32,036 bases of DNA from Deltaproteobacteria bacterium (GTDB lineage: Bacteria; Myxococcota; JACPTQ01): assembly GCA_016192705.1 (NCBI GenBank), contig JACPTQ010000062.1, forward strand, positions 1-32,036, given 5' to 3'. Made by a program: the position numbers and the translations under genes. The notes beneath the pieces were generated by a model that was not told where the DNA came from, made no database searches, and worked only from the letters and a program-made list of their open reading frames with translations. Shown here in pieces: positions 1,427 through 32,036 of this stretch (its first letter is position 1; each line of letters begins with the position of its first letter).

Positions 1427-3160
1427 ATGGAGACGCTTCGGATCGCGCTTGTTCAGATGAACGCGACGGTCGGCGACCTCGCGAAAAATCGGGATCGAAT
1501 TATTCGTGGGCTCGAGGACGCACGCAAAGCCGGCGCGGCCTTCGTGGCGTTTCCAGAGCTTGCGGTGACGGGTTACCCGCCCGAGGATTTGGTGCTCTCG
1601 CCGCAGTTTGTCGCCGACAACGTCAAGGCGCTCGGCGACGTTTGCGCCGCGACGCGCGGTATCACGGCCGCGGTTGGATACGTCGATTGCGGTGACGACA
1701 TTTATAACGCCGCGGCGATTCTGCACGACGGCAAGCACGTTGCGACTTATCACAAGCGGTTTTTACCGAACTACTCTGTCTTCGACGAGGACCGGTATTT
1801 TCAAGCCGGCACCAAAGGTCTCGTCGTTGAGCTCGGTGCGGTGCGCATCGGCATCAACATCTGCGAGGACATCTGGTACCCCGGCGGTCCGACCACCGAC
1901 GAAGCGCTCGCGGGCGACGCCGACGTTATTCTCAACATCTCATCGTCGCCGTTTTGCGCCGGGAAACACGCGCAGCGCAAGAAGATGCTCGCCGTGCGCG
2001 CCGTCGACAACGTCGTGTGCGTCGCGTACCTCAACATGGTTGGTGGCCAAGACGAGCTCATTTTTGACGGTCGGAGCCTCGTCGTGAACGAGGCGGGCGA
2101 AACGCTTGCCGAGGGCCGCGCCTTCGACGAGGACCTTGTCGTTGTCGACCTCCCCATCGATTCGGTCTTTCGGCGCCGCCTCAAAGACCCGAGACGGCGC
2201 AAAGAGAAACTCCGAACGGGTGCGCATTCCGACGTCGACATTGTCCCACTCGCCGCTCCCGCATTTGCGTCCGCGCCCGCGCTCGCAACCGCTCCCGCCT
2301 ATGCGCCCGCCTCACCCGACGAAGAAGTCTACGGCGCGCTCGTTCTCGGTGTGCGCGACTACGTCCAAAAAAACAAATTTCAAAAAGTTGTCGTCGGTCT
2401 CTCGGGCGGAATCGACTCCGCGCTCACCGCCGCCATCGCTGTTGACGCGCTCGGCGCGACCAACGTGGTCGGCGTCACAATGCCATCGCGTTTTTCGTCC
2501 GACGCCACGCGTGCCGACGCCGAGGCCGTGGCCCACGCGCTCGGCGTACGCTTCCTCACGCTCCCCATCGAACCGCTCGCTGCTGCGTTCGACACCGCGC
2601 TCGCCCACGACTTTTCAGGGCTCCCGCGCGACATAACGGAAGAGAATCTTCAAGCGCGCATTCGCGGAAACCTCCTCATGGCGCTCTCGAATAAGTTCGG
2701 TTGGCTCGTCCTCTCGACCGGCAACAAGAGCGAGTTGTCGATGGGGTACTGCACGCTTTACGGCGACATGGCGGGCGGTTTCGCGATTTTGAAGGATGTT
2801 CCCAAGACGCTCGTTTATCGGTTGGCCGCGCTTCGAAACGCGCGCTCGCCCGTCATCCCCGAATCGACCATCGCGCGGCCGCCAACGGCCGAGCTCCGCG
2901 ACAACCAAAAAGACGAAGATTCGCTCCCGCCGTACGCGACGCTCGACCCCATCCTCCGGCTCTACGTCGAAGAGGATGCGAACGAGGATGAGATTGTCGC
3001 CGCCGGATTCGACCGCGCGACCGTGCGCCGCGTCTGCCGAACAGTCGACACGTCCGAGTACAAACGGCGCCAAGGCCCCGTCGGCATTAAGATTACGCCG
3101 CGCGCGTTCGGGAAGGATCGGCGATTTCCGATTACAAATGCCTACACGCGGACCGTTTGA
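1427..3160 (+). CDS. nadE: Glutamine-dependent NAD+ synthetase
   Basis: This cytoplasmic enzyme makes NAD+ from deamido-NAD+ (nicotinic acid adenine dinucleotide), ATP and glutamine, the last step of NAD biosynthesis. The 577-residue protein has both domains of the glutamine-dependent form. The N-terminal nitrilase-like glutaminase has the catalytic triad visible as Glu44 (FPELAVTGYPPEDL), Lys110 (YHKRFLPNYSVFDE) and Cys146 (INICEDIWYPGGP). The C-terminal synthetase has the PP-loop SGGIDS at 326-331, then STGNKSE and YGDMAGG. The C-terminal tail includes a motif of the KITPRAFGKDRR type. An Ala/Pro-rich linker at about 276-297 separates the domains. A strong Shine-Dalgarno (GGAAGGGAG) precedes the ATG. 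The length is typical of the two-domain bacterial family. The gene appears to be monocistronic. Confidence 0.96.
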   Translation: METLRIALVQMNATVGDLAKNRDRIIRGLEDARKAGAAFVAFPELAVTGYPPEDLVLSPQFVADNVKALGDVCAATRGITAAVGYVDCGDDIYNAAAILHDGKHVATYHKRFLPNYSVFDEDRYFQAGTKGLVVELGAVRIGINICEDIWYPGGPTTDEALAGDADVILNISSSPFCAGKHAQRKKMLAVRAVDNVVCVAYLNMVGGQDELIFDGRSLVVNEAGETLAEGRAFDEDLVVVDLPIDSVFRRRLKDPRRRKEKLRTGAHSDVDIVPLAAPAFASAPALATAPAYAPASPDEEVYGALVLGVRDYVQKNKFQKVVVGLSGGIDSALTAAIAVDALGATNVVGVTMPSRFSSDATRADAEAVAHALGVRFLTLPIEPLAAAFDTALAHDFSGLPRDITEENLQARIRGNLLMALSNKFGWLVLSTGNKSELSMGYCTLYGDMAGGFAILKDVPKTLVYRLAALRNARSPVIPESTIARPPTAELRDNQKDEDSLPPYATLDPILRLYVEEDANEDEIVAAGFDRATVRRVCRTVDTSEYKRRQGPVGIKITPRAFGKDRRFPITNAYTRTV

Positions 3161-4173: not shown

Positions 4174-4222
4174 CGCCTCATTCAACTAGGATACCGCCCC
4201 GGCTTTCGTAAGGGGTGTGCTT

Positions 4223-6019
4223 ATGATGACAAGATTGACCGTTGTGTTTGTGATGACCTGCGTGCTCTTGGCCTGTAAGACCGGTGGAGACAAGGCGACG
4301 GCGGATCCGCGAAGGGAAGCGGCGCGTACGGGTGATCCGGCCGCGGTGCCACTTCGAGGAGCTGTTCCACCGGGTGCGGTCGCGGCGGCTCCGCAACCGG
4401 GCTCGCCGAGCGCGGCGCCGGGTGCAGCGGCCGTGGGAACGTCAGCCCCTGCTGTGGGCACGGCGACGACGGCCGACGAGCAGGAACCGAACGACGACGT
4501 TAAAACCGCGACGCCACTCGCGCTCGAAACGGCGATGCGCGCAACGCTCAAGGCTGCACCGGGCGCGAAAAAGAGCGACGAGGATTGGTTCAAGGTGACA
4601 ACGGCGGATGAGAAGGGCATCTTGAGCGTCGAGGTGACGGGCGTCCCAGGGATGAAATTGGGCGTCGAGCTTTTCGATGCGCAGAAGCGACTCATCGCAA
4701 GCGCCGTTGGGAGTGTCGGCGAGGCGGTCGTGTTTCCGAATCTCGGCGTGAAAAAGGGAGATTCGTATGTACGCGTGCGCGAGCGGACGCGCGGCAAGGC
4801 GGCCGTCGAGAGCGACACGCCGTACACCATCACCGCGACAACCGCGACACGCCTCGAAACGGAGGAGGTTGAGCCGAACAACCGCGCGGTTGATGCGACG
4901 CCGCTCGAAGAGGGGAAGACGATGAGCGGGTTCATGTCGCCGCGTGGGGACGAGGACTGGTGGAAAATTGTTTTGCCGGAGTCGAAGGGCGATAAGGAGA
5001 AAGGCGACAAGGGCGCGGACAAAGCCGGCGCGAGCTTTTTGCGCGTGAGCGTGAAGGGCGTTGCGACGGGCGACGGGCGGGTCGCGATCGTCGACTCGAT
5101 CGGCGCGAAGGTGACGGAACAGGCGCTTAAAGCGGGCGGCGAAGTGGTTTTTCCGAACGTCGGCATTAAGGAAGGGTCGAAGCAGATGCACGTCGTCGTA
5201 AAGACGGTCGGACTCGGGAGCGCGAAAGAGCGTTACGAGGTGACCGCGAAGGTCGAGAAATCGACGGGCGATATGGAGATCGAGCCGAACGACAGCGACA
5301 AACACGCGACGCCGCTCACGGTCGGGAAGCCGATTCGCGGGTTCATGGCGTCGGCGAAAGATGTCGATTGGTATTCGTTCAAGGTGACGGAGCCGTCGGT
5401 TGCGCGAATTGAGCTCGGCGGCGTCGAGCGCGTTGACCATGCGCTTGAGGTCGTTGGGGCGCGGGGCGAAAAGCTCGCGCGAAGCGATGATGGGCGGGCC
5501 AAGGAATCGGAGACGGTGACAAACGTTTTTCTGCCGGTCGGCGAGGCGTTCGTGCGCGTGTCGTCGGCGCGCAAGGGGGGCGAGAACATCGACGAGACGT
5601 ACGAGCTTGCGGTGACGCTTCGCGCGGCGCCGGACGACGAAGAGCGAGAGCCGAACAATGGAGACAAGCAGGCGAACGAGCTGTCTTCGGGGAAGACGCT
5701 TTTGGGGTACATCCACCCGAAAAAGGATCGCGATTTTTACCAGTTCGTGCTCCGCGAGGAGAAGAAGGTCGTTGTGAGCGTCATAGGGATTGCGAAGGTT
5801 GGGCTTGCCGTTTCGCTGGTCGACGAGAAGGGGGCGATCGTCGCGGACGGGCGTGGGCCAGCGGGCGGAGATGTCGCGTTCGATAAGAAGATTCCGGCTG
5901 GGACGTATCGCGTCGTTGTCGAACAAAACCTGCAACCGGCAAAAGGGAAAAAGGGAAAACCACGCACCGAATCAAATCCGCGTGACCCGTATAAGCTGAC
6001 GCTGAAGGTTGAATTGTGA
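4223..6019 (+). CDS. Lipoprotein with four PPC-like domains
   Basis: The 598-residue protein starts with a lipoprotein signal whose lipobox reads LLAC, with the lipidated Cys just before KTGGDK. An Ala/Pro/Gly-rich linker of about 60 residues follows. Four repeats of about 110-130 residues come next. Each opens with an acidic EPN motif (EQEPNDD, EVEPNNR, EIEPNDS, EREPNNG) and carries a DEDW/DVDW/DRDF turn followed by a beta-strand. This is the signature of bacterial pre-peptidase C-terminal (PPC) domains, normally found as accessory domains of secreted proteases. No protease domain is present, so this looks like a stand-alone surface or periplasmic binding protein. ATG 4223 is favoured over an upstream GTG because AAGGGG (4210-4215) lies seven nt before it. 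An alternative ATG is at 4226. Confidence 0.85.
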   Translation: MMTRLTVVFVMTCVLLACKTGGDKATADPRREAARTGDPAAVPLRGAVPPGAVAAAPQPGSPSAAPGAAAVGTSAPAVGTATTADEQEPNDDVKTATPLALETAMRATLKAAPGAKKSDEDWFKVTTADEKGILSVEVTGVPGMKLGVELFDAQKRLIASAVGSVGEAVVFPNLGVKKGDSYVRVRERTRGKAAVESDTPYTITATTATRLETEEVEPNNRAVDATPLEEGKTMSGFMSPRGDEDWWKIVLPESKGDKEKGDKGADKAGASFLRVSVKGVATGDGRVAIVDSIGAKVTEQALKAGGEVVFPNVGIKEGSKQMHVVVKTVGLGSAKERYEVTAKVEKSTGDMEIEPNDSDKHATPLTVGKPIRGFMASAKDVDWYSFKVTEPSVARIELGGVERVDHALEVVGARGEKLARSDDGRAKESETVTNVFLPVGEAFVRVSSARKGGENIDETYELAVTLRAAPDDEEREPNNGDKQANELSSGKTLLGYIHPKKDRDFYQFVLREEKKVVVSVIGIAKVGLAVSLVDEKGAIVADGRGPAGGDVAFDKKIPAGTYRVVVEQNLQPAKGKKGKPRTESNPRDPYKLTLKVEL

Positions 6020-11347: not shown

Positions 11348-11387
11348 GGCGCATCACCTCCAATGGCCGAATTTACGCGCGCGGGGC

Positions 11388-11416
11388 TTGAGGCGCAAGG
11401 AGGCATGGGTCATAGT
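11388..11416 (+). promoter_or_regulatory. Putative promoter of the subunit-3/GMC operon
   Basis: TTGAGG (11388-11393) and CATAGT (11411-11416) are separated by 17 nt. The predicted start falls exactly on the GTG at 11423, which gives an ideal short Tat signal. This supports the GTG over the ATG at 11405, whose AAGGAGG is only one nt away. Confidence 0.5.
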
Positions 11417-11422
11417 CGCGCC

Positions 11423-11944
11423 GTGACGTTTTCGCGGCGATCGTTTTTGGGCTGGCTCGCGAGTCTTCTCGGCGTAGGCGGCGTAACGTTTCTCGGGTAT
11501 CGCGAGTCGAAGCATTGGCGTGAGCGGACACGTTCACGAGCTGGGGATGCGGGTTCACCGGCGGTTGCGCGCGGATTGTCGGCCGACGCGGTCGCTTTAG
11601 TCGCCGCCGTGAGTACGCGGCTCGTTCCCACGACCGACCTCCCGGGCGCGCGCGAGGCGAATGTGGCCGAGTTCATTGATCGGCAGATGGCGGATAAACA
11701 GTTTCGCGTTTTTCGAGACGAGATCGAGGCGGGGGCCAAGCGGTATGCGGATTTCGCGGCTTTGTCGCCTGAAAAACAAGTCGAGCGCCTCACGGGAATC
11801 CAATCGGATGAAACGCATCTCTTCCAAGTTCTCTTGACGCTCACGCTTGAGGGCGCCTTCGCCGATCCGCGTCACGGCGGCAATCGCGACTGTGCGGGTT
11901 GGAAGCTTCTCGGCATCGATCGCCACGAGTGCAAACACACATGA
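11423..11944 (+). CDS. Tat-exported gluconate 2-dehydrogenase subunit 3-like protein
   Basis: From the GTG at 11423 the protein is 173 residues and begins MTFSRRSFLGWLASLLG, a clear twin-arginine signal followed by a hydrophobic core. The mature part has the subunit-3 pattern: ALVAAVSTRLVPTTDLPGA, then NVAEFIDRQM, and near the end GAFADPRHGGNRDCAGWKLLG. In membrane-bound gluconate-type dehydrogenases this small subunit accompanies the GMC flavoprotein and carries it through the Tat pathway. The stop codon overlaps the next start (ATGA at 11941-11944), a hallmark of translational coupling. No cytochrome c subunit gene is nearby, so the electron acceptor is unknown. The start could instead be ATG 11405 or 11363. 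Confidence 0.82.
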   Translation: MTFSRRSFLGWLASLLGVGGVTFLGYRESKHWRERTRSRAGDAGSPAVARGLSADAVALVAAVSTRLVPTTDLPGAREANVAEFIDRQMADKQFRVFRDEIEAGAKRYADFAALSPEKQVERLTGIQSDETHLFQVLLTLTLEGAFADPRHGGNRDCAGWKLLGIDRHECKHT

Positions 11945-13431
11945 CGGTCGCCCCCGCATCAGCCGATGTCGTTGTGGTCGGGAGTGGTGCCGCGGGTGGG
12001 GCGATTGCTTTCGCGTGCGCCGAGCGCGGACTTCGCGTTGTTGTTATTGAAAAGGGCTCGGAATACCAGCGCGCGGACTATACGCACGATGAGCTTTCGA
12101 TCTGTCGTCGAAACTTTTTTCTGCCGTACATGGCCGACGAGCCGCGCACATTTCGCGAGCACGCCGATCATCCGGCCGGAAAATCAAACTTCGCGTGGAT
12201 CTCATGCTGCGTGGGCGGCGGTACGGTTCATTGGAGCGGTTTTTCGTATCGGTTTGCGGCGAGCGATTTTGTAGGCTGGCCGATCGACCTTGCGACCTTG
12301 GAGCCGTACTACGCGCGTGCCGAGGCGCTCCTTGGTGTGACGCGTGCGCTCAATGTGCACCCGCTCGCGAAGCGGTTCGCCGAACGGGTGCGCGCGATGG
12401 GGCACGCGACCGAGCAATCGCCGCGCGCGATTTTGCGCGAGGCAACGGCGACGCGGGGCGCGTGCAACTATTGCGATTTTTGCGGGTCGTACGGCTGCGA
12501 GACCGGCGCAAAGGGCTCGAGCCAGGAAGCGCTCCTCGCGCCAGCCCGTGCGACGGGGCGCTGCAACGTTATTTCGCGCACGGTCGTCACCGAAATCACG
12601 AAGGGCGCGGATGGGCGGGCGACGGGCGTTCAAGTGTTGCGGGACAACGGCGAGCGCCACGAGATGCGCGCAGCCGTCGTTGTTGTCGCGGCGTCGGCGA
12701 TCGAATCGGCACGCCTCTTATTGCTGTCGAAACTTGGGAATTCGAGCGGGCTTCTCGGCAACGGGCTCATGTTTTTGACGGTCGCGAACGGCGAAGCGAC
12801 GTTTTTGCGACGCGCGGGCGATCCCGTCTTTGCGAACGGGTCGCCGTTTTTCGATGTCACGGCGCGGCTTCGCGCAGGCGTCGTCAATTTTGGATTCGCA
12901 CACCCCAATCCTATCTTCAACGCGGAGAAATTGGCTGGATCCGGTGCGAGCGCGGTCTGGGGGAAACCGCTTGTCGAGCGGCTGCGGCGGCATTTTCGCG
13001 AGGGGCTTCATGTCGACTTCGAAGGCTATTCGCCGTGCACGCGCGTTGACACCAACGCCGTCGACCTCGACCCCGACGTGCGCGACAAGTGGGGGTTGCC
13101 GGTTGCGCGCATTACGTTCAAGCGCCCCGAGCGTGATTTTGCGGCGAGCCTTGCCCTTGCGACTCACGGGACAGCGCTCCTCCAGAAGGCGGGCGCCGAT
13201 CGCGTCGCCGAGCCGAGCCACGGTGAATCGCTCGTCGTCGTGCAGTCGGGAACGTGCCGCATGGGGCGCGATGCGCGGACATCGGTCGTCGACGCTGCGG
13301 GCAAACTCCACGATGCGGCCAACGTCTACGTCGCGGACAGCGCGGTTTTTCCGACGTCCGGGAGCGTCCCGCACACACTCACCATTGTCGCGAACGCGCT
13401 TCGTATGGGCGATGAAATCGCCCGAAGATGA
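11941..13431 (+). CDS. GMC-family flavin oxidoreductase (gluconate-dehydrogenase-like large subunit)
   Basis: The 496-residue protein binds FAD through VVVGSGAAGGAIAFACAERG near the N terminus (residues 11-30). It has the family's GGGTVHWSG and WPIDLATLEPYYARAE elements and a C-terminal GTCRMG...DSAVFPTSG block. It lacks its own signal and is probably exported by the Tat peptide of the coupled subunit-3-like protein. Four Cys at 175, 178, 181 and 186 (CxxCxxCxxxxC) lie where related FAD dehydrogenases carry an iron-sulfur cluster, so a cluster is likely. The usual catalytic His of HxxGTxRMG is Val434, and the usual Asn of the NPxLTI motif is Pro (VPHTLTI), so the active site is unusual. The substrate cannot be assigned. 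The start is the coupled ATG at 11941. Confidence 0.85.
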   Translation: MTVAPASADVVVVGSGAAGGAIAFACAERGLRVVVIEKGSEYQRADYTHDELSICRRNFFLPYMADEPRTFREHADHPAGKSNFAWISCCVGGGTVHWSGFSYRFAASDFVGWPIDLATLEPYYARAEALLGVTRALNVHPLAKRFAERVRAMGHATEQSPRAILREATATRGACNYCDFCGSYGCETGAKGSSQEALLAPARATGRCNVISRTVVTEITKGADGRATGVQVLRDNGERHEMRAAVVVVAASAIESARLLLLSKLGNSSGLLGNGLMFLTVANGEATFLRRAGDPVFANGSPFFDVTARLRAGVVNFGFAHPNPIFNAEKLAGSGASAVWGKPLVERLRRHFREGLHVDFEGYSPCTRVDTNAVDLDPDVRDKWGLPVARITFKRPERDFAASLALATHGTALLQKAGADRVAEPSHGESLVVVQSGTCRMGRDARTSVVDAAGKLHDAANVYVADSAVFPTSGSVPHTLTIVANALRMGDEIARR

Positions 13432-24601: not shown

Positions 24602-24607
24602 GAAGTG

Positions 24608-26821
24608 ATGATTCGGGATTCCATACGGGCGTTGATGCCGCGCCTTGCGTCGGCGCCCGAATACCCGACGCAGGGGGCTACGCTTTTCGTGGATCTCGAG
24701 CGCCGAGAAATTGCACGCGCCTATACACCGCGAGCGGTCGTCGAAATGTTTCTCGAAGGGCGCGGCGCGAACATGTTTTACCTCTACAACTTACTCGACC
24801 CGACGCTCGATCCGTTTCACCCCGACGTGCCGCTCATTTTTGGAAACGGCATCTTGACCGGCATCGTGCCGTCGGCGGCTCGCGGCAACGTGACCGGCTG
24901 GTCGCCCGAAACAAGGCTCCTCATGGACTCGAACGCGGGCGATTACTTCCCGAGCTTTTTGAAGTTGAACGGGATCGACCGCCTGGTGCTTTTCGGCGAC
25001 GCACCCAGCTGGACGATGCTCGTCGTCGAAAAGGGCGAAGTCGCATTTCGCGATGCGCACACGTACGTCGGGCTCGACAACATCGATCTGCGCGCGCGCC
25101 TCGAGCGCGATTTTGGCGGCCAAGAGGGCAAAGAGCTTGCGATGGCGGCGATCACGAGAGCCGGCGAAAATCGTGTGTTGTCGGCGGCGATCATGGCGGG
25201 CCCGAAATGTTGTTACGCGCGCGGCGGTACGGGCGCGAAGATGGGCGCGCTCAAAGTGAAGGCGATCGTCGTGCGCGGCTTTAATCCCGCGCTGGGAGCC
25301 GGGCTTCACGTCGACGCTGTGAAACCGTTTAACAAGAAGATAGCGACGGAACTGTTGGACACAGGCGTCGTGAAGCACGCGCTCAAGCTGCGGGGTACGC
25401 CGTTTCTTTACAAGCCAAGTCGAATGCTTGGCGCCATGGGGACGAAGAACAATCAAGAAACGACGTGGACGGATGCGCTCGACGCCGAAAACATCGACCC
25501 GTATCGACCCGGGATGGCGGGGTGTTTTCGGTGCCCGGTGAATTGTCGGCCGCTGAATGACGTGAGAGAAGCGGGAGCGGGAGCGGATAGGTACAGCGCG
25601 GGAGATGGGCCGGAGTATGTGACGGTCGGAAAATTTGGGCCGGGGATTGGGATTCGCGACGTGCGGCAGGTGATTCGGCTGAACAACATCGCGAACGATC
25701 TCGGCATGGACACGGCGTCGCTCGGGTCGTCAATCGCGTGGGCGATGGAGCTCTGGCAGCGCGACCTCATCGGTGCGCGCGAAACAGGCGGGCTCGATTT
25801 GACATGGGGAAATTACGAGGCGATCGAAAAACTTTTTTTCATGACGGCGGCGCGCGAAGGGTTTGGCGATACGATCGCGTGTTCGGCGCGTGCGGTTGAC
25901 GACGGAAAATATCCGCGCGAGGCGCTCAACTATCGGATGGCCGTGAAGGGACTCATGCAATCGGACCCGCACGATGCGCGCATCATCAAGGCGTTTGCGC
26001 TTGGGCTTGCGGTTGCAACCCGCGGTATGGACCATTTGCGAAATCGCGCGACCCTCGAAATCAACGCGAAAATTAACGACGACGCGGCGTACAAGCGCGA
26101 GCTCTATGGAGGTGACGTTTCACCGAAGCCGAACGCGTACGACGGAAAGGCGCGCGCGGTAAGGGTTTGCGAGGACACGTTTGCGGTGGGCGATTCGGTC
26201 GGGATGTGCCGGTTCACGACGAAACTTTTTAACAGTCCGAACTTACCGGGGCTCGATGAGTTTTCGGCGCAAATCCGAAACGTGACGGGGCTCGAGTTCT
26301 CGCCGGTGGCTTTGCGGGACGTTGGCCTTTGCATCACGGGCCTGGAGCGTATGGTGAACCATCGGCTCGGCGCGCGGCGCGACGATGACACGCTTCCCTT
26401 GCGTTGGTTCGACGAACCGATTGTTTGGGGCGCGTATAAGGGCGAGAAGATCGATCGCGCCGAGTTCGATGCGATGCTCGATGAATTCTACGAACTGACG
26501 CGGCTCGACCGAGAGGGGCAACCGGAGCCGGAGTTTCGAGCGCGGCTTGCCGAAGTGGCGCGCGGGTTTGCCGTCACCGTGCGGATTCCCCGCGACGTGC
26601 GCGACGTGCCGAGTGGCGCCATTGTCGTCGCCGAGCCGATCGCAAATCTTCGTGAGTTGATCGCGATCCTCGACCGCGATTGCAACGGCTTGGGTGGACT
26701 GCTTTCGAGCGGCGCGTTTGCGCTAGCGGTTAACAACAACGTCGTCCTTCACGGCCAGGCTGAGACGCCGCTGAAATCCGGCGACGTCGTCGATGTCATG
26801 CCGGCGCTTGCGGGCGGTTAA
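24608..26821 (+). CDS. Aldehyde:ferredoxin oxidoreductase with fused MoaD/ThiS domain
   Basis: The 737-residue protein has the tungsten-pterin AOR fold: N-terminal, central and C-terminal AOR domains to about residue 640. [4Fe-4S] ligands are predicted as Cys306, Cys309 and Cys313 (CFRCPVNC) plus Cys534 (DSVGMCRF), matching the CxxCxxxC...C pattern of the family. Other motifs are DGPEYVTVGKFG, NDLGMDTASLG and DDDTLPLRWF. The last ~85 residues form a beta-grasp domain ending VVDVMPALAGG. This is the MoaD/ThiS pattern with a C-terminal Gly-Gly that in MoaD is thiocarboxylated for molybdopterin synthesis. Such AORs oxidise aldehydes to carboxylates, or do the reverse, with ferredoxin. No cofactor or tungstate genes are nearby. 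The ATG is preceded by a promoter-like pair only. Confidence 0.9.
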   Translation: MIRDSIRALMPRLASAPEYPTQGATLFVDLERREIARAYTPRAVVEMFLEGRGANMFYLYNLLDPTLDPFHPDVPLIFGNGILTGIVPSAARGNVTGWSPETRLLMDSNAGDYFPSFLKLNGIDRLVLFGDAPSWTMLVVEKGEVAFRDAHTYVGLDNIDLRARLERDFGGQEGKELAMAAITRAGENRVLSAAIMAGPKCCYARGGTGAKMGALKVKAIVVRGFNPALGAGLHVDAVKPFNKKIATELLDTGVVKHALKLRGTPFLYKPSRMLGAMGTKNNQETTWTDALDAENIDPYRPGMAGCFRCPVNCRPLNDVREAGAGADRYSAGDGPEYVTVGKFGPGIGIRDVRQVIRLNNIANDLGMDTASLGSSIAWAMELWQRDLIGARETGGLDLTWGNYEAIEKLFFMTAAREGFGDTIACSARAVDDGKYPREALNYRMAVKGLMQSDPHDARIIKAFALGLAVATRGMDHLRNRATLEINAKINDDAAYKRELYGGDVSPKPNAYDGKARAVRVCEDTFAVGDSVGMCRFTTKLFNSPNLPGLDEFSAQIRNVTGLEFSPVALRDVGLCITGLERMVNHRLGARRDDDTLPLRWFDEPIVWGAYKGEKIDRAEFDAMLDEFYELTRLDREGQPEPEFRARLAEVARGFAVTVRIPRDVRDVPSGAIVVAEPIANLRELIAILDRDCNGLGGLLSSGAFALAVNNNVVLHGQAETPLKSGDVVDVMPALAGG

Positions 26822-26874: not shown

Positions 26875-27921
26875 GTGAGGCGCGTAGCGGCCGCGGTTTT
26901 TCTCTCACTCGGCGTTTCGGGCGTCGTCGCGGCGGCGATTACGATTTCAACCGTCGCCGTTCGAACGGACGCCGAGAAGCGGAAATTCTCGCGCAAATAT
27001 CCGGAGCTCGCGGGACGCCTCGCGGCGGCGCGCACGACGCCCGGATTGAGTTCGCATGTGCCGCAAGGGATCGCATCGGTTGGGAATGGCTCGACGATCG
27101 TCATCTCGGCCTATTCGGCGACCGAGGGCAAGCCGTCGATCTTCATGCTCGTCGACGCGGCAACGGGTCGTCTCAACCGCGCGTTCGAGATTAAAACCGA
27201 GGTGGGCGCTCATTACACCGGGCACGTGGGCGGCGTTGCGGTGCTCGCGGGATCGCTTTGGACGGTGGGAGGCGGCGAAGTTGTGCGGTTCGCGCTGCGC
27301 CCGATGCTCGACGCGCGCGAGAACGGCGTTGTGCGGCCCGACAAGCGGTTCGTGGTCGACAGCAAAGCCTCGTACGTGAGCGCCGAAGGCGAGCATCTCT
27401 GGGTGGGCGATTTCGTCCATTCGGGCGATCGCGACTTTGCGGCGACACCGCACCACAGCGCGAAGGGAAAGAACGCGTGGGTTGCGGCGTACCGCGTCGA
27501 TGTGAAGACAGGTCTCCTCGCGACGCGGACGACGTACAAGGTTGGCTCGAAACAGGTTCTTCGGCCCGACAAGGTGCTCTTTGTGCGCGAGGATGTTCAG
27601 GGGATGGCTGTCGCAGGAAGTCGCGTGGCGCTGACGGCGTCGTTCGGCAGCGCGAATTCAAAGCTCGCCGTTTATCGGTCGCCGCTTGGCGGGATTCCGT
27701 TCGTCGTGAATCTTCCCGATGGCCAGCGAACAGACGGCTACGTCGTCGACTCGAACAACCATCTTTGGACGATCGAAATGCCGGCCGGCGCCGAGGACCT
27801 CGAGTGGAACGGCCGCCATCTGTTAACGCTGTTTGAAGGCGGGTCGGTGAAGTATCGCGCGCGGTGGCGCGCAAGCGGTGGTTTTATCGAGGATCGCTTC
27901 TATCGCTTGTCGCTCGATTAG
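26875..27921 (+). CDS. Exported beta-propeller-like protein of unknown function
   Basis: The 348-residue protein has an N-terminal signal or anchor (MRRVAAAVFLSLGVSGVVAA). The mature region has recurrent beta-rich units with GxVxxGGxxxV-type turns: GHVGGVAVLAGSLWTVGGGE, AEGEHLWVGDFVHSGDRD, DVQGMAVAGSRVALTASFGS, and near the end DSNNHLWTIEMPAGAEDL. These suggest a propeller of the NHL/SMP-30 type but no catalytic residues stand out. The function is unknown. The GTG start at 26875 has no Shine-Dalgarno; TACGAT at 26862-26867 may be a -10. It overlaps the convergent GNAT gene by four nt. Confidence 0.72.
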   Translation: MRRVAAAVFLSLGVSGVVAAAITISTVAVRTDAEKRKFSRKYPELAGRLAAARTTPGLSSHVPQGIASVGNGSTIVISAYSATEGKPSIFMLVDAATGRLNRAFEIKTEVGAHYTGHVGGVAVLAGSLWTVGGGEVVRFALRPMLDARENGVVRPDKRFVVDSKASYVSAEGEHLWVGDFVHSGDRDFAATPHHSAKGKNAWVAAYRVDVKTGLLATRTTYKVGSKQVLRPDKVLFVREDVQGMAVAGSRVALTASFGSANSKLAVYRSPLGGIPFVVNLPDGQRTDGYVVDSNNHLWTIEMPAGAEDLEWNGRHLLTLFEGGSVKYRARWRASGGFIEDRFYRLSLD

Positions 27922-28397
27922 CCGCGGGGGACGGTTGATGTCGTCGCGATTGCGCACTCCATGAGGACGTGTGGACCGATGTTCGGGAGTAGAAACGCTG
28001 CGCCGCGCGTCTCGAATCCACAACGCTCGTAAAAGCCAGACGCGGTTGTTCGGGCATTGCACCAGACGAGTGTCGCGCCCACATTCCGTGCGGCATCGAG
28101 GCACGCCTCGACCAGCGCGCGGCCAACACCGAGCTTGCGGTGCTCCCCCCGAACAGCCATCCCGCGCAGTCGCCACGCGGATTCGAGCGCTCTGCGCCCC
28201 GGCAGCGGCTCGTGGTAAAGCGAGGCAACGCCAATGACCGCGCCGCGCGTGATCGCCGCGAAGTGATGCCCGTCCGGCGGTTCATCCGCCGTCGCGTAGA
28301 TTTCGTCGATCGGCTGGTGCGGGCGCAAGACCGCGTGCCGGAGCGGAACCGTCTCTCGTGCCGCGACCAACTGCACCTCGAAGCCTCGGGCCAGCAT
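27918..28397 (-). CDS. GNAT-family N-acetyltransferase
   Basis: The 159-residue protein has the GNAT core. The acetyl-CoA-binding motif A reads LRGMAVRGEHRKLGVGRALVEA, and the LVWCNARTTASGFYERCGF segment gives the strand-helix of motif B. Family members transfer acetyl groups from acetyl-CoA to amines; the substrate is unknown. The sequence preserves the RxxGxGRAL pyrophosphate loop, so it is probably active. A -35/-10 pair upstream would start transcription next to the ATG at 28397. It is convergent with the propeller-like gene and divergent from the nucleotidase gene. Confidence 0.9.
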   Translation of the reverse strand: MLARGFEVQLVAARETVPLRHAVLRPHQPIDEIYATADEPPDGHHFAAITRGAVIGVASLYHEPLPGRRALESAWRLRGMAVRGEHRKLGVGRALVEACLDAARNVGATLVWCNARTTASGFYERCGFETRGAAFLLPNIGPHVLMECAIATTSTVPRG

Positions 28398-28404
28398 GCG
28401 CCGG

Positions 28405-28434
28405 ACGGTATTTGCTGAACGCCGTCGTCGTCAA
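28405..28434 (-). promoter_or_regulatory. Putative promoter of the GNAT gene
   Basis: On the minus strand, TTGACG (28429-28434) and TACCGT (28405-28410) are separated by 18 nt. The predicted start is next to the ATG at 28397. Confidence 0.4.
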
Positions 28435-28474
28435 CTTGAAGGTTTCGTTCCCCGTCTTCAGTGACGACGCGAAG

Positions 28475-28503
28475 TTGCGCGCACGCGGTTCGTCGCCGAT
28501 ACT
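28475..28503 (+). promoter_or_regulatory. Putative promoter of the HAD-IG nucleotidase gene
   Basis: TTGCGC (28475-28480) and GATACT (28498-28503) are separated by 17 nt. The predicted start is within one nt of the GTG at 28511, which decides the start choice. Confidence 0.45.
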
Positions 28504-28510
28504 TAAGACC

Positions 28511-30034
28511 GTGACCACGGCACGCGGGCCCAAAGTCGTTCCGCTCAACCGCTTGAAGACGATCGAGCTGCTCGCGAATCCGCCCGTCTATCGCACCCTC
28601 GAACGCGCGCGGCGCGTTTTCGTGAACCGCAATTTGCGCATGGACCAGATCGACCTCATCGGATTCGACATGGACTACACGCTCGCCCTCTACAAAAAGG
28701 ACCGCATCGAGGAACTTGCGTTTCGCCTCACGGTCGAAAAGCTGATTAAGAATAAGGGTTACCCAAGTACCGTCGCGAAGATTCAGTACGACTCGAAGTT
28801 CGCGATGCGCGGGCTCGTCATCGACAAAAAGCTCGGCAACGTCTTGAAGATGGACCGCCACCGCCACGTCGGCAAGGTCTACCATGGGCGCCGCCCCGTC
28901 TCGAAAGACGACCGCACGCAGATTTACCGCAACACGAAGATCCAGCCGTCGGCCGCGCGCTATCACTTGGTCGACACGCTCTTCACGCTGCCGGAGGTGT
29001 CGCTTTTCGCGGAGCTCGTCGACTGGAAAGACCGCGGCGAAATTCCGCACGACCACGAAAAAATCTTCGATGACATCCGCGTGTCGATCGACGAGGCGCA
29101 CCGCGACGGTTCGCTCAAGGCCGTTATTCTCGCGAACCTCGCGCATTACGTCGATGACGACCCCGACCTCGCCATGACGCTTCACAAGTTTCGATCGAGT
29201 GGGAAGCGCCTTTTCTTGATGACGAATTCATACTGGGATTACACCGACGCCGTGATGAAGTTTTTGCTCGAAAAGCGCATGGCGGAGTACCCGACGTGGC
29301 GCGCGTTTTTTGACATCGTGATCGTCGGGGCCGAGAAACCGGGGTTTTTCACGGGCGAAAAGGCGTTTGCCGACATCACCGACGGCACGACGCGGCACGC
29401 AAAGGGGCCGTTTGAAAAGGGGCGGGTTTATTTGCACGGGAATTTAGCCGACTTCGAGAAGTTCTCGGGTCAAGGGGGAGACCGAATCCTCTACGTTGGC
29501 GACCATATCTATGGCGACATTTTGCGGTCGAAGAAAAGCTCGACCTGGCGCACGGCGATGGTGGTTCAAGACCTTGAGGAAGAAATTGTCACGTTCCAAA
29601 AGTGCGAGGAGGAGTTTCGCACGCTCGGCGAGCTGGAAACGGAGCGGCAGCGGTGCGATTACGAACTCAACTACTATCAGATGGTGCTGAAGTCGCTGCA
29701 GAAGTTTCAGGAGCAACACAAAAACGAACTCGCGGACGAAGAAGAGGCGGCGCTCGAGGAGGCGAAGCGGCGCGCGCGCGCGAACCTCGACCGGTTTCGC
29801 CATCGGATGCGCGTCGCGGTTGAGCAAAGCGATTCGCTCGACGATTCGCTCGACGAACGGTTCAATCCTTACTGGGGCCTCATCTTCAAGGAGGGGAACG
29901 AAAACTCATCGTTCGCCGAGCAGGTCGAAGATTACGCGTGCATCTACACGAGCCGCGTGTCGAATTTCTTATGGTATTCGCCGCTGCAATATTTTCGAAG
30001 CCCGCGCGATTCGATGCCGCACGAGCGGCCATAG
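28511..30034 (+). CDS. HAD-IG family 5'-nucleotidase (NT5C2-like)
   Basis: The 507-residue protein begins near MTTARGPKVVPLNRLKTIEL. The HAD nucleophile motif DMDYT is at residues 53-57 (Asp53 nucleophile, Asp55 acid/base), inside IGFDMDYTLALYKKD. Later motifs are FLMTNSYWDYTDAVMKFLL, KPGFFTG, and the acidic metal motif YVGDHIYGDILRSKK. These match the purine 5'-nucleotidase (HAD-IG) family, which dephosphorylates IMP/GMP-type nucleotides in the cytoplasm. The C-terminal third is a charged coiled coil with long helices. The longer open frame begins upstream (28358), but that part overlaps the GNAT start and lacks a ribosome-binding site. It is convergent with the large exported protein gene. 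Confidence 0.9.
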   Translation: MTTARGPKVVPLNRLKTIELLANPPVYRTLERARRVFVNRNLRMDQIDLIGFDMDYTLALYKKDRIEELAFRLTVEKLIKNKGYPSTVAKIQYDSKFAMRGLVIDKKLGNVLKMDRHRHVGKVYHGRRPVSKDDRTQIYRNTKIQPSAARYHLVDTLFTLPEVSLFAELVDWKDRGEIPHDHEKIFDDIRVSIDEAHRDGSLKAVILANLAHYVDDDPDLAMTLHKFRSSGKRLFLMTNSYWDYTDAVMKFLLEKRMAEYPTWRAFFDIVIVGAEKPGFFTGEKAFADITDGTTRHAKGPFEKGRVYLHGNLADFEKFSGQGGDRILYVGDHIYGDILRSKKSSTWRTAMVVQDLEEEIVTFQKCEEEFRTLGELETERQRCDYELNYYQMVLKSLQKFQEQHKNELADEEEAALEEAKRRARANLDRFRHRMRVAVEQSDSLDDSLDERFNPYWGLIFKEGNENSSFAEQVEDYACIYTSRVSNFLWYSPLQYFRSPRDSMPHERP

Positions 30035-30043
30035 GGGTTCTCC

Positions 30044-32014
30044 TTACCTCTTCGGAACGACGCCGCGTCGCTCGTCTTTCGCGCGCTTTCGCAAGAGCCG
30101 CTTGAGCCCGCGCGCCGCCATGCTCTCAACGAACGATGCGCGCATCATCGCGTCTTCGTCGAGGTCGACAACTTTCGGCTGGTGCTCGACATAACTCTCC
30201 GCGTGCAGGACCGCAGCGGGCAGCCGCTCAAGCGCCGTTTCGCAGCGCTTCGTGATGTCGCTCGATTGCGGTTTGAGCTTTTCCGTGGGCGGCGCATACC
30301 ACCCCGGCATCACGGCCATCTCTGGCACCGTATAATATTCGTGTCCGTAAAGTCGTTCGCGCGCCATCAGCTCGCGTGCCGATGGTTTGTCGTCACCGCG
30401 ACGTTTCAGGTCCGGGCGTTTTTCGGCGCACTTTCGAAGCGACGCGAAACCCGCGCGTTTCACGACCTTCAGTTCCGCGGCCTTCTCCCACGACGTGCGA
30501 AGCCCCTTCGGAATCGCCGCCCAGTACTGGTGGCAGTTGTGCCGCGCGTGCGACTCGATTAACCACCGTGACGGCTTTGGTCCCTTTGATTTTTTCGCGA
30601 CGTCCTCGGCCTCATCGATCGCAATCCGCCAAATCGCCCCGCGTTTCGCGGTGCAATCGAGGATCGACTTAAGCCCGTGGGTCTCAAGTTGATGAAGCAC
30701 CGCCTTGGTGTGCTCGGCTTCGATAACGCGCGCCCGTGCCATATCCACCTTCCACGTCGCGTTCGCCGCGGCCCTGACCTCGGCCTTAGCCCTCGCGACA
30801 TCGCGCTCGCGGTCGTCGGCCTCCTCTTTCGCCTCCTTCGCCGCGCGCTTCTTTGCCTTCGCTTCCGCGTTCAGTTTGTCGCGCTTGTGTTTGACCTCGC
30901 GTTTTTCATCGTCAGCCTTTTCCTTGTCGTCGTCGTCGCAGGGGTCATCGCAGCCCATAAATCCACAGAAAACGCCCGTCACGGCGCCGCCAACCGCGCA
31001 TCCAATGTCCTTCAAAAACTTGGCGAGGTCTTCGAGGCGTTTGACGGCCCATCTCGCGAACTCCTCCGCCTTTTTAAGAATCTTCTCAGCGACCTTGACG
31101 AGCGATTTCGCCTTGTCCTTCGCCCAATCGAGCGCCTCCTTTGCCTTTCGCAGGTACTTCTCGGCTTTTTCCTTAACCTTGTGAAACCCCTCCTTCGCAG
31201 CTTCGACGGCGTCTTTCCCGATTTCAATCGCCTCCTTAACGAGCTTCTTCCCGATCTCAAGCGGGTCAAGGAGTTCCTTGACGGCGTCAACGATTTTGTC
31301 CCAGATGCGCTGCGGGTTCACAGGACCGACCGCGATGTCGATCCCAAAGAGTTCCGCTTCGGCCCAAACGCCGCGCTCGTCGACTTCGATGTCGAGCCCG
31401 AGTCCATGGCCCAGAATTTTCGCTTCGGCTTTACCCGCGAGCTTCCAATCCGACAGGTCCCACTTGGCGCGTCCGTTAAGATCCACTTTAACGACGCCAA
31501 AACGGAACGGGGCCTCGAATGAGACGCCGCGTTGATTGATGATGACAGTCGTTCGCCCGAAATCGTGCCCGAGCACGCGCAAGGTCGATTCACCGCGCAA
31601 CTCCCAGCGTTTGAAGTCGAACGAGACCTTTCCTCTGAACTTCGCTTTCTGCACAAGGAACTTTGTTTCGCATTCAATGGTTAAGTCGTCGCGCGAGACC
31701 GTGATGCTTGCGTCGCATCGAAAAAGGCTGACCCCCGCGATCGTGACCGGCGCGAGAACCTTAATCTGTGTTGGCGCGAGCGTAATTCTTATCGCGGCGC
31801 CCGGATCGGCGCTGCCGATAACGAGCGGTGTCGGGAGAATGGGTCCCACGACAACGCCCGTGAGCGGGATTTCAACGCCCTGCTTTGCGTCGACCGGAAC
31901 TTTAACCTTGAAAACGCGCTCAAAAACACCAATAAGTTCATTGGCTTGCGCCATGGATGCCGCTGGCACACCAAGAATACCGAGAAGAGACAAGGTGACG
32001 GCAAGGAGAGACAT
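30044..32014 (-). CDS. Large exported protein: beta domain, amphipathic helices and charged coiled coil; 5' end may be outside
   Basis: From the ATG at 32014 the protein is 656 residues. It begins with a signal peptide (LLAVTLSLLGILGVPAASMAQA). Residues about 25-235 are beta-rich with two similar units (LRGESTLRVLGHDFG...RGVSFEAPF and LAGKAEAKILGHGLG...RGVWAEAEL). Residues about 240-345 are a long run of Lys/Glu/Ala amphipathic helices. A short Gly/Cys hydrophobic hairpin (GCAVGGAVTGVFCGFMGC) is followed by an acidic patch (DDPCDDDDKEK) and a charged coiled coil. The C-terminal ~200 residues are basic. I recognise no family. The frame stays open upstream of 32014 to the window edge and that ATG has no Shine-Dalgarno, so the true start may lie outside. 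Confidence 0.7.
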   Translation of the reverse strand: MSLLAVTLSLLGILGVPAASMAQANELIGVFERVFKVKVPVDAKQGVEIPLTGVVVGPILPTPLVIGSADPGAAIRITLAPTQIKVLAPVTIAGVSLFRCDASITVSRDDLTIECETKFLVQKAKFRGKVSFDFKRWELRGESTLRVLGHDFGRTTVIINQRGVSFEAPFRFGVVKVDLNGRAKWDLSDWKLAGKAEAKILGHGLGLDIEVDERGVWAEAELFGIDIAVGPVNPQRIWDKIVDAVKELLDPLEIGKKLVKEAIEIGKDAVEAAKEGFHKVKEKAEKYLRKAKEALDWAKDKAKSLVKVAEKILKKAEEFARWAVKRLEDLAKFLKDIGCAVGGAVTGVFCGFMGCDDPCDDDDKEKADDEKREVKHKRDKLNAEAKAKKRAAKEAKEEADDRERDVARAKAEVRAAANATWKVDMARARVIEAEHTKAVLHQLETHGLKSILDCTAKRGAIWRIAIDEAEDVAKKSKGPKPSRWLIESHARHNCHQYWAAIPKGLRTSWEKAAELKVVKRAGFASLRKCAEKRPDLKRRGDDKPSARELMARERLYGHEYYTVPEMAVMPGWYAPPTEKLKPQSSDITKRCETALERLPAAVLHAESYVEHQPKVVDLDEDAMMRASFVESMAARGLKRLLRKRAKDERRGVVPKR

Positions 32015-32036
32015 GTTGCGAGTCCCGAACCCATTC

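Follow-up and report, generated by a model that had tools for sequence, protein, structure and literature searches.

Positions 30044–32014 of the window, which is the whole analyzed contig of 32,036 nucleotides, contain on the minus strand a real gene with host-like codon usage, hereafter P0001, whose product is probably an exported protein restricted to its lineage. The best overall explanation, which we hold tentatively, is a Sec-exported protein in which a beta domain is combined with a lipid-surface helix serving as a peripheral anchor. If the membrane reading is true, P0001 would have an architecture that is new for bacterial envelope proteins and would help to test what deep, sparsely sequenced lineages contain; as things stand, it joins the other probably exported proteins that are restricted to one lineage, and it is ordinary in kind.

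Reading frame, start and layout of P0001

Codon usage was scored with a table built from 17 other ORFs of the window, which themselves score 0.21–0.54. The P0001 frame scores 0.32–0.63, is positive in all seven segments and lies above all five other frames in every segment, and for this reason we take it as a real gene; its third-position G+C is 0.71. The plus-strand frames opposite to it (30677–31522 and 31536–32036) were rejected as shadow frames, having the lower codon score in every segment, by a small margin in one segment (0.59 vs 0.63). The coordinates of the initial annotation, given there without a strand, correspond to this minus-strand frame of 656 codons. A promoter and terminator scan of 29500–32036 was uninformative (no promoter-like site; three terminator-like sites vs 4.0 expected).

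The gene, its convergent neighbor and the regions of the encoded protein are as follows:

30044–32014, minus strand: P0001 open frame, 656 amino acids; frame open to the contig end, 663 codons
31946–32014, minus strand: residues 1–23, hydrophobic signal-peptide-like segment (Kyte-Doolittle mean 2.02 over residues 1–19)
31655–31945, minus strand: residues 24–120, beginning of the beta-rich domain, including Cys100 and Cys115
31496–31654, minus strand: residues 121–173, beta unit A with LGHDFG (alignment)
31343–31495, minus strand: residues 174–224, beta unit B with LGHGLG (alignment)
31001–31309, minus strand: residues 236–338, Lys/Glu/Ala amphipathic helix (periodicity; helix in the low-confidence model)
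30938–31000, minus strand: residues 339–359, Gly/Cys hydrophobic segment and DDPC, with Cys339, Cys350, Cys355 and Cys359
30680–30937, minus strand: residues 360–445, acidic patch and highly charged helix (model and sequence)
30047–30679, minus strand: residues 446–656, basic C-terminal part with Cys454, Cys494, Cys529 and Cys591 (net charge +16)
28358–30034, plus strand: HAD-IG family 5'-nucleotidase, P0002 (PF05761, 2e-154; TIGR02244, 2e-111)

The signal-like start described in the initial annotation is present as a sequence feature: the hydrophobic residues 1–23 end in SMAQ|A, an AxA-like site, and a hydrophobic core followed by such a site is typical of exported proteins. P0001 would accordingly be a candidate for export by Sec to the periplasm or the cell surface. 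If ATG 32014 is the start, the segment has no basic n-region, as there is no Lys or Arg between this codon and the hydrophobic core; the codons just upstream include an Arg, and the n-region hinges on the position of the true start, which is possibly located past the contig edge. Since the frame continues open to this edge, at base 32036, ATG 32014 is possibly not the real start, and the true one may be upstream. The seven further codons before the edge contain no other start codon, no clear ribosome-binding site was seen by eye before ATG 32014, and the last 120 bases of the contig gave, apart from the match to themselves, only matches of at most 20 bases in the own genome. Both the open frame with its seven extra codons and the lack of a clear ribosome-binding site would suit an intracellular or degenerate protein in which the seeming signal peptide would be the last piece of an N-terminal part that the contig edge has cut off; the hydrophobic core with its AxA-like site and the coding character of the first segment (codon score 0.38) argue against this, and we regard it as unlikely.

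Residues 24–224 read as beta strands, and strands are also drawn in residues 24–120 by the low-confidence models described below. Repeated beta units with an LGH(D/G)xG motif, as initially reported, were recovered as two units, A and B, which stand in tandem, head to tail, are 33% identical and have in common W-x-L-x-G, LGHxxG, RGV and E-A; the LGH(D/G)xG motif starts at residues 148 and 201. The alignment score of the two units is 80 (24.0 ± 4.0 for shuffled sequences) and was reached by none of the 2000 shuffles. No significant similarity was found between residues ~25–125 and the region with the two units (score 27, reached by 394 of 2000 shuffles). We regard the duplication of this ~52-residue unit as shown; the beta-rich N-terminal domain probably grew by it.

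AlphaFold2, run on the single sequence without an alignment, gave a mean pLDDT of 43.8 for full-length P0001 and 30.6 for the N-terminal domain alone; residues 371–410 form the only stretch with fair confidence (block pLDDT 77–82). The secondary structure in these low-confidence models matches the reading of the sequence, beta strands followed by long helices, which the full-length model places at residues 277–353 and 364–445. A Foldseek search of this model against PDB yielded no matches at E ≤ 0.001. The best match (E 0.39, a bile-acid-binding beta protein, followed by several fatty-acid-binding proteins) was discounted, and Foldseek matches count as nothing here because the model quality is so low.

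Searches for families and relatives

The initial annotation stated that the protein matches no known family, and within our searches this proved correct, with no significant match in Pfam, NCBIfam or PDB sequences. Up to E 1, Pfam returned only ERp29 (0.019) and DUF4268 (0.19), both on the helix and below the cut-off; the best NCBIfam match (0.021) lay on the Gly/Cys and charged part; and the best PDB sequence match, that of the helix to the designed three-helix bundle 4tql (E 0.023), was insignificant. When the N-terminal and C-terminal parts were searched alone, neither matched Pfam (up to E 10) or NCBIfam (up to E 1); the PDB sequences, likewise searched up to E 10, yielded three matches to the C-terminal part, the best at 0.38, and none to the N-terminal part. 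TBLASTN at E 0.01 found no match in 72,556 plasmid records or in 50,697 phage records. Short peptide patterns, with which viral contigs were scanned twice and genome contigs once, gave no relative; the genome scan and one of the viral scans were sensitive to close relatives only. Phyla other than the own one were covered only by these short-pattern scans and the plasmid and phage searches.

Of the 195 phylum genomes searched, only the own one gave a match to the N-terminal domain. The C-terminal part, for which at most 15 candidates per genome were scored, was found in the own genome and in one other (E 9e-4), where the match was taken as a non-coding frame. The full-length protein, with at most six candidates per genome scored, was found in the own genome and had weak matches in five of the 194 other genomes at E ≤ 0.01. 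Several candidates were rejected. A 37-residue match (E 0.49), the only one in the own genome apart from P0001, lies inside a frame which we take to be 5'-nucleotidase/UshA-like and was dismissed as chance. The match at L006 (genome G152), a piece at 1501–1782 in a long repetitive minus-strand frame, was taken as non-coding because this frame further on runs opposite a kinase-like frame (1963–3048). The match at L004 (G004) has three internal stops, and that at L115 (G181) precedes, in the same frame, the start of a lipoprotein that we take, from reading its letters, to be peptidyl-prolyl-isomerase-like. Two further full-length matches, L113 and L114, were handled as an analogue (see below).

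A profile of the two beta units gave 15 matches in 14 of the 194 other phylum genomes at E ≤ 0.1 (best 0.004). These were rejected as chance matches: in each of the 11 loci, out of 15, whose alignments were read, the match is partial and covers 15 to 38 profile columns. In the table of matched stretches, 13 loci, among them L107 and L109, have one stretch each, L101 has two weak ones (E 0.84), and L098 does not appear.

P0001 and the 5'-nucleotidase gene are convergent and separated by nine bases; the latter is not part of the P0001 system. The records of its 80 best relatives are mostly named as Myxococcales, Myxococcota or 'Deltaproteobacteria', and these names indicate Myxococcota as the phylum. 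The 80 loci that surround them, many with short flanks, contained no relative of P0001; the database used for this synteny analysis comprised 95 loci in all and frames of at least 80 codons.

How much weight the lack of relatives carries was calibrated with two other proteins of the window. A PHP-domain protein (Pfam match below the cut-off) was found in 124 of the 195 phylum genomes, the own one included. The other control is a 348-amino-acid protein at 26875–27921 on the plus strand, which has a signal-like start by eye and no Pfam match at E 0.001; at E 0.001 none of the 194 remaining phylum genomes gave a relative, so that it was found in one of 195, its own. From these two controls it follows that the search works and that being an orphan is not special in this window, as far as one comparison can tell. 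Moreover, all 57 other genomes listed as relatives are related at the phylum level only, so the absence of homologs says little. The lesson is one of calibration: orphan status carries little weight here. As no relatives were found, there is also no conservation to mark important residues.

The amphipathic helix and its analogs

The Lys/Glu/Ala amphipathic helix of about 100 residues noticed in the initial annotation spans 103 residues (236–338) and has a periodicity far above that of shuffled sequences: the helical power peaks at 21.2 with a period of 3.56, the maximum among 2000 shuffles being 12.2. The segment contains 22% Lys, 13% Glu, 15% Ala and no Thr, and its net charge is +6 over the 103 residues. 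The best overall period is 3.56–3.60 over 86–103 residues; in nine local windows of 22 residues the best periods are 3.44–3.70, two of the nine reaching 3.66–3.70. The mean angle from the hydrophobic center is 55 degrees for large hydrophobic residues, 42 for Ala and Gly, 121 for Lys and Arg, and 145 for Asp and Glu. Of the 19 Ala and Gly residues, eight lie within 30 degrees of this center, and they are flanked by large hydrophobic residues. The helix has class A charge placement (basic flanks and an acidic pole) as a tendency only, and 14 of its 27 Lys and Arg residues lie beyond 120 degrees.

A likeness to apolipoprotein or LEA helices had been suggested, and it stands in part. Like the class A helices of apolipoproteins and those of group-3 LEA proteins, the P0001 helix has an acidic pole, Lys and Arg on average nearer to the flanks, and an Ala-rich nonpolar face. 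However, LEA-type 11-residue repeats have a period of about 3.67, whereas the P0001 helix has one of 3.56–3.60 and lacks Thr; unlike in LEA proteins and apolipoproteins, it belongs to a larger protein that also has Cys residues and a beta domain; and no LEA or apolipoprotein family occurs among the Pfam matches of P0001 up to E 1. PMC10808001 describes the amphipathic elements of group-3 LEA proteins as enriched in Ala and Thr, and reports that one such protein from a tardigrade, whose Ala/Thr-enriched elements are weakly hydrophobic, binds negatively charged membranes. The latter bears on the P0001 helix as an analogy only.

The best match of the helix in the phylum is L113 (L113:1447-2958, genome G158; 504 amino acids from the first ATG), which belongs to an unnamed family found in 51 of the 195 genomes: 36% over residues 248–332, with E 7e-4 in one genome and hence about 0.13 over 195 genomes. 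Loci of this family include L119–L148, and their lengths run from the 504 amino acids of L113 up to about 1,800 codons; L113 itself has no Pfam family above the cut-off (Phasin_2 at 0.07). Like P0001, it combines a long amphipathic helix with apparent Gly/Ala/Val beta repeats, but the order of the parts is reversed (helix, then beta) and a signal-like start is lacking. In favor of kinship, the two helices score 114, a value that no plain shuffle out of 500 attained (37.9 ± 6.3), while reversing the helix lowers the score to 83. Against it, when residue classes were kept in place, 10 of 500 shuffles reached 114 (87.6 ± 11.7), and circular shifts of the helix scored 89 on average and 114 at most. 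The beta parts are not similar (41 vs 36.0 ± 5.9, reached by 106 of 500 shuffles). Profile comparison gave a probability of 3–13% for the helix and under 1% both for the reversed or shuffled helix and for the beta part. The class-preserving shuffles and the profile comparison do not show homology that goes further than composition and residue pattern. The resemblance is treated as a likeness of parts, with L113 a putative analog of P0001, although the helices may be distantly related.

The best PHROGs match is a tail tape-measure protein (E 0.003, residues 236–419). Phage tail tape-measure proteins have, like P0001, long charged helices; P0001 differs from them in its signal-like N-terminus and its beta domain, and the match covers nothing outside the helical part, whose composition is biased. 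This candidate was rejected, Pfam having identified no phage family in P0002 or in the 20 other ORFs of the window; the other flank lies beyond the contig end.

In the explanation that we prefer, the helix would lie on a membrane or another lipid surface as a peripheral anchor and would display the beta domain at one side and, at the opposite side, the charged C-terminal part with its Cys residues. We give the same tentative weight to an exported protein that has a structural or scaffolding role and does not touch a membrane: its helix would pack in a bundle, or in a stalk spacing the beta domain from the C-terminal part, by folding back against the second charged helix or against further copies of the protein. 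The packed arrangement is favored by the period of 3.56–3.60 and by the nonpolar face with Ala and Gly at its center and large hydrophobic residues beside them; the two long helices drawn by the full-length model and the three-helix bundle 4tql as the best, albeit insignificant, PDB match point the same way. On the other hand, residues 362–440 are almost devoid of an amphipathic pattern and make a poor partner because of their mean moment of 0.12, and the overall period differs from the 3.5 of a classical coiled coil. The charge placement favors the membrane helix, whereas its net charge of only +6 speaks against it. The two readings are about equally good, and we lean slightly, by a small margin, to the membrane helix because the charged helix at 362–440 offers no nonpolar stripe to pack against.

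A bolder form of the membrane reading, which we consider doubtful, would make P0001 the founding member of an undescribed membrane-active envelope family of this deep Myxococcota branch only, with beta units and a disulfide-locked Gly/Cys knob joined by the lipid-surface helix.

The Gly/Cys segment, the C-terminal part and other genes of the window

The remaining parts named in the initial annotation (Gly/Cys segment, acidic patch, charged helix and basic C-terminal part) are all present in the order given there. The helix is directly followed by GCAVGGAVTGVFCGFMGC and then by DDPCDDDD. The hydrophobic hairpin proposed for this place was not recovered: the Gly/Cys segment is a single hydrophobic stretch of ~18 residues (mean hydropathy 1.72 over residues 337–355), not obviously a hairpin, and the low-confidence model runs one helix through most of it. 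A membrane hairpin or pore-forming loop was rejected, as ~18 residues fit about one crossing and are too short for two hydrophobic legs. The segment is preceded by the Lys/Arg-rich helix and followed by an Asp-rich stretch. Flank charges of stop-transfer helices are governed by the positive-inside rule, and those seen here are, judged from the sequence, opposite to the ones expected of a stop-transfer helix behind an exported N-terminal domain. The proposed insertion into a membrane as a hairpin is weakened by the length of the stretch. Under the peripheral-anchor explanation, this segment at the helix end would not cross the membrane and might, at a guess, be locked by disulfides. P0001 has ten Cys residues, all outside the signal segment and distributed over its regions as 2 + 4 + 4; these even numbers fit an oxidizing compartment, a weak indication.

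The long modular layout of P0001, with a Gly-rich hydrophobic stretch in the middle and a C-terminal part containing His, Cys and Trp, resembles the layouts of toxins. P0001 might accordingly be read as a secreted effector with its activity in the basic C-terminal part and with the helix and Gly/Cys stretch used for delivery or membrane entry. We consider this improbable: the C-terminal part matched nothing in the Pfam and NCBIfam searches at the thresholds given above, no relatives with exchanged C-terminal parts were found, there is no immunity-like gene on the visible side of P0001 (the other flank again being beyond the contig end), and the Pfam scan of the 20 other window ORFs detected no secretion-system family.

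Three other loci of the window, all on the plus strand, were noted. The frame at 4217–6019 (600 amino acids) has a lipobox-like start and a match to the pre-peptidase C-terminal (PPC) domain, and by eye a PPC-like unit recurs in it. At 11363–13431, the frame for gluconate 2-dehydrogenase subunit 3 overlaps the GMC oxidoreductase frame that comes after it. Finally, the gene at 24605–26821 encodes an aldehyde ferredoxin oxidoreductase (AFOR_N, AFOR_C) with a C-terminal ThiS-type domain; for Azoarcus, PMC1779556 reports a MoaD fused to the C-terminus of an aldehyde ferredoxin oxidoreductase.
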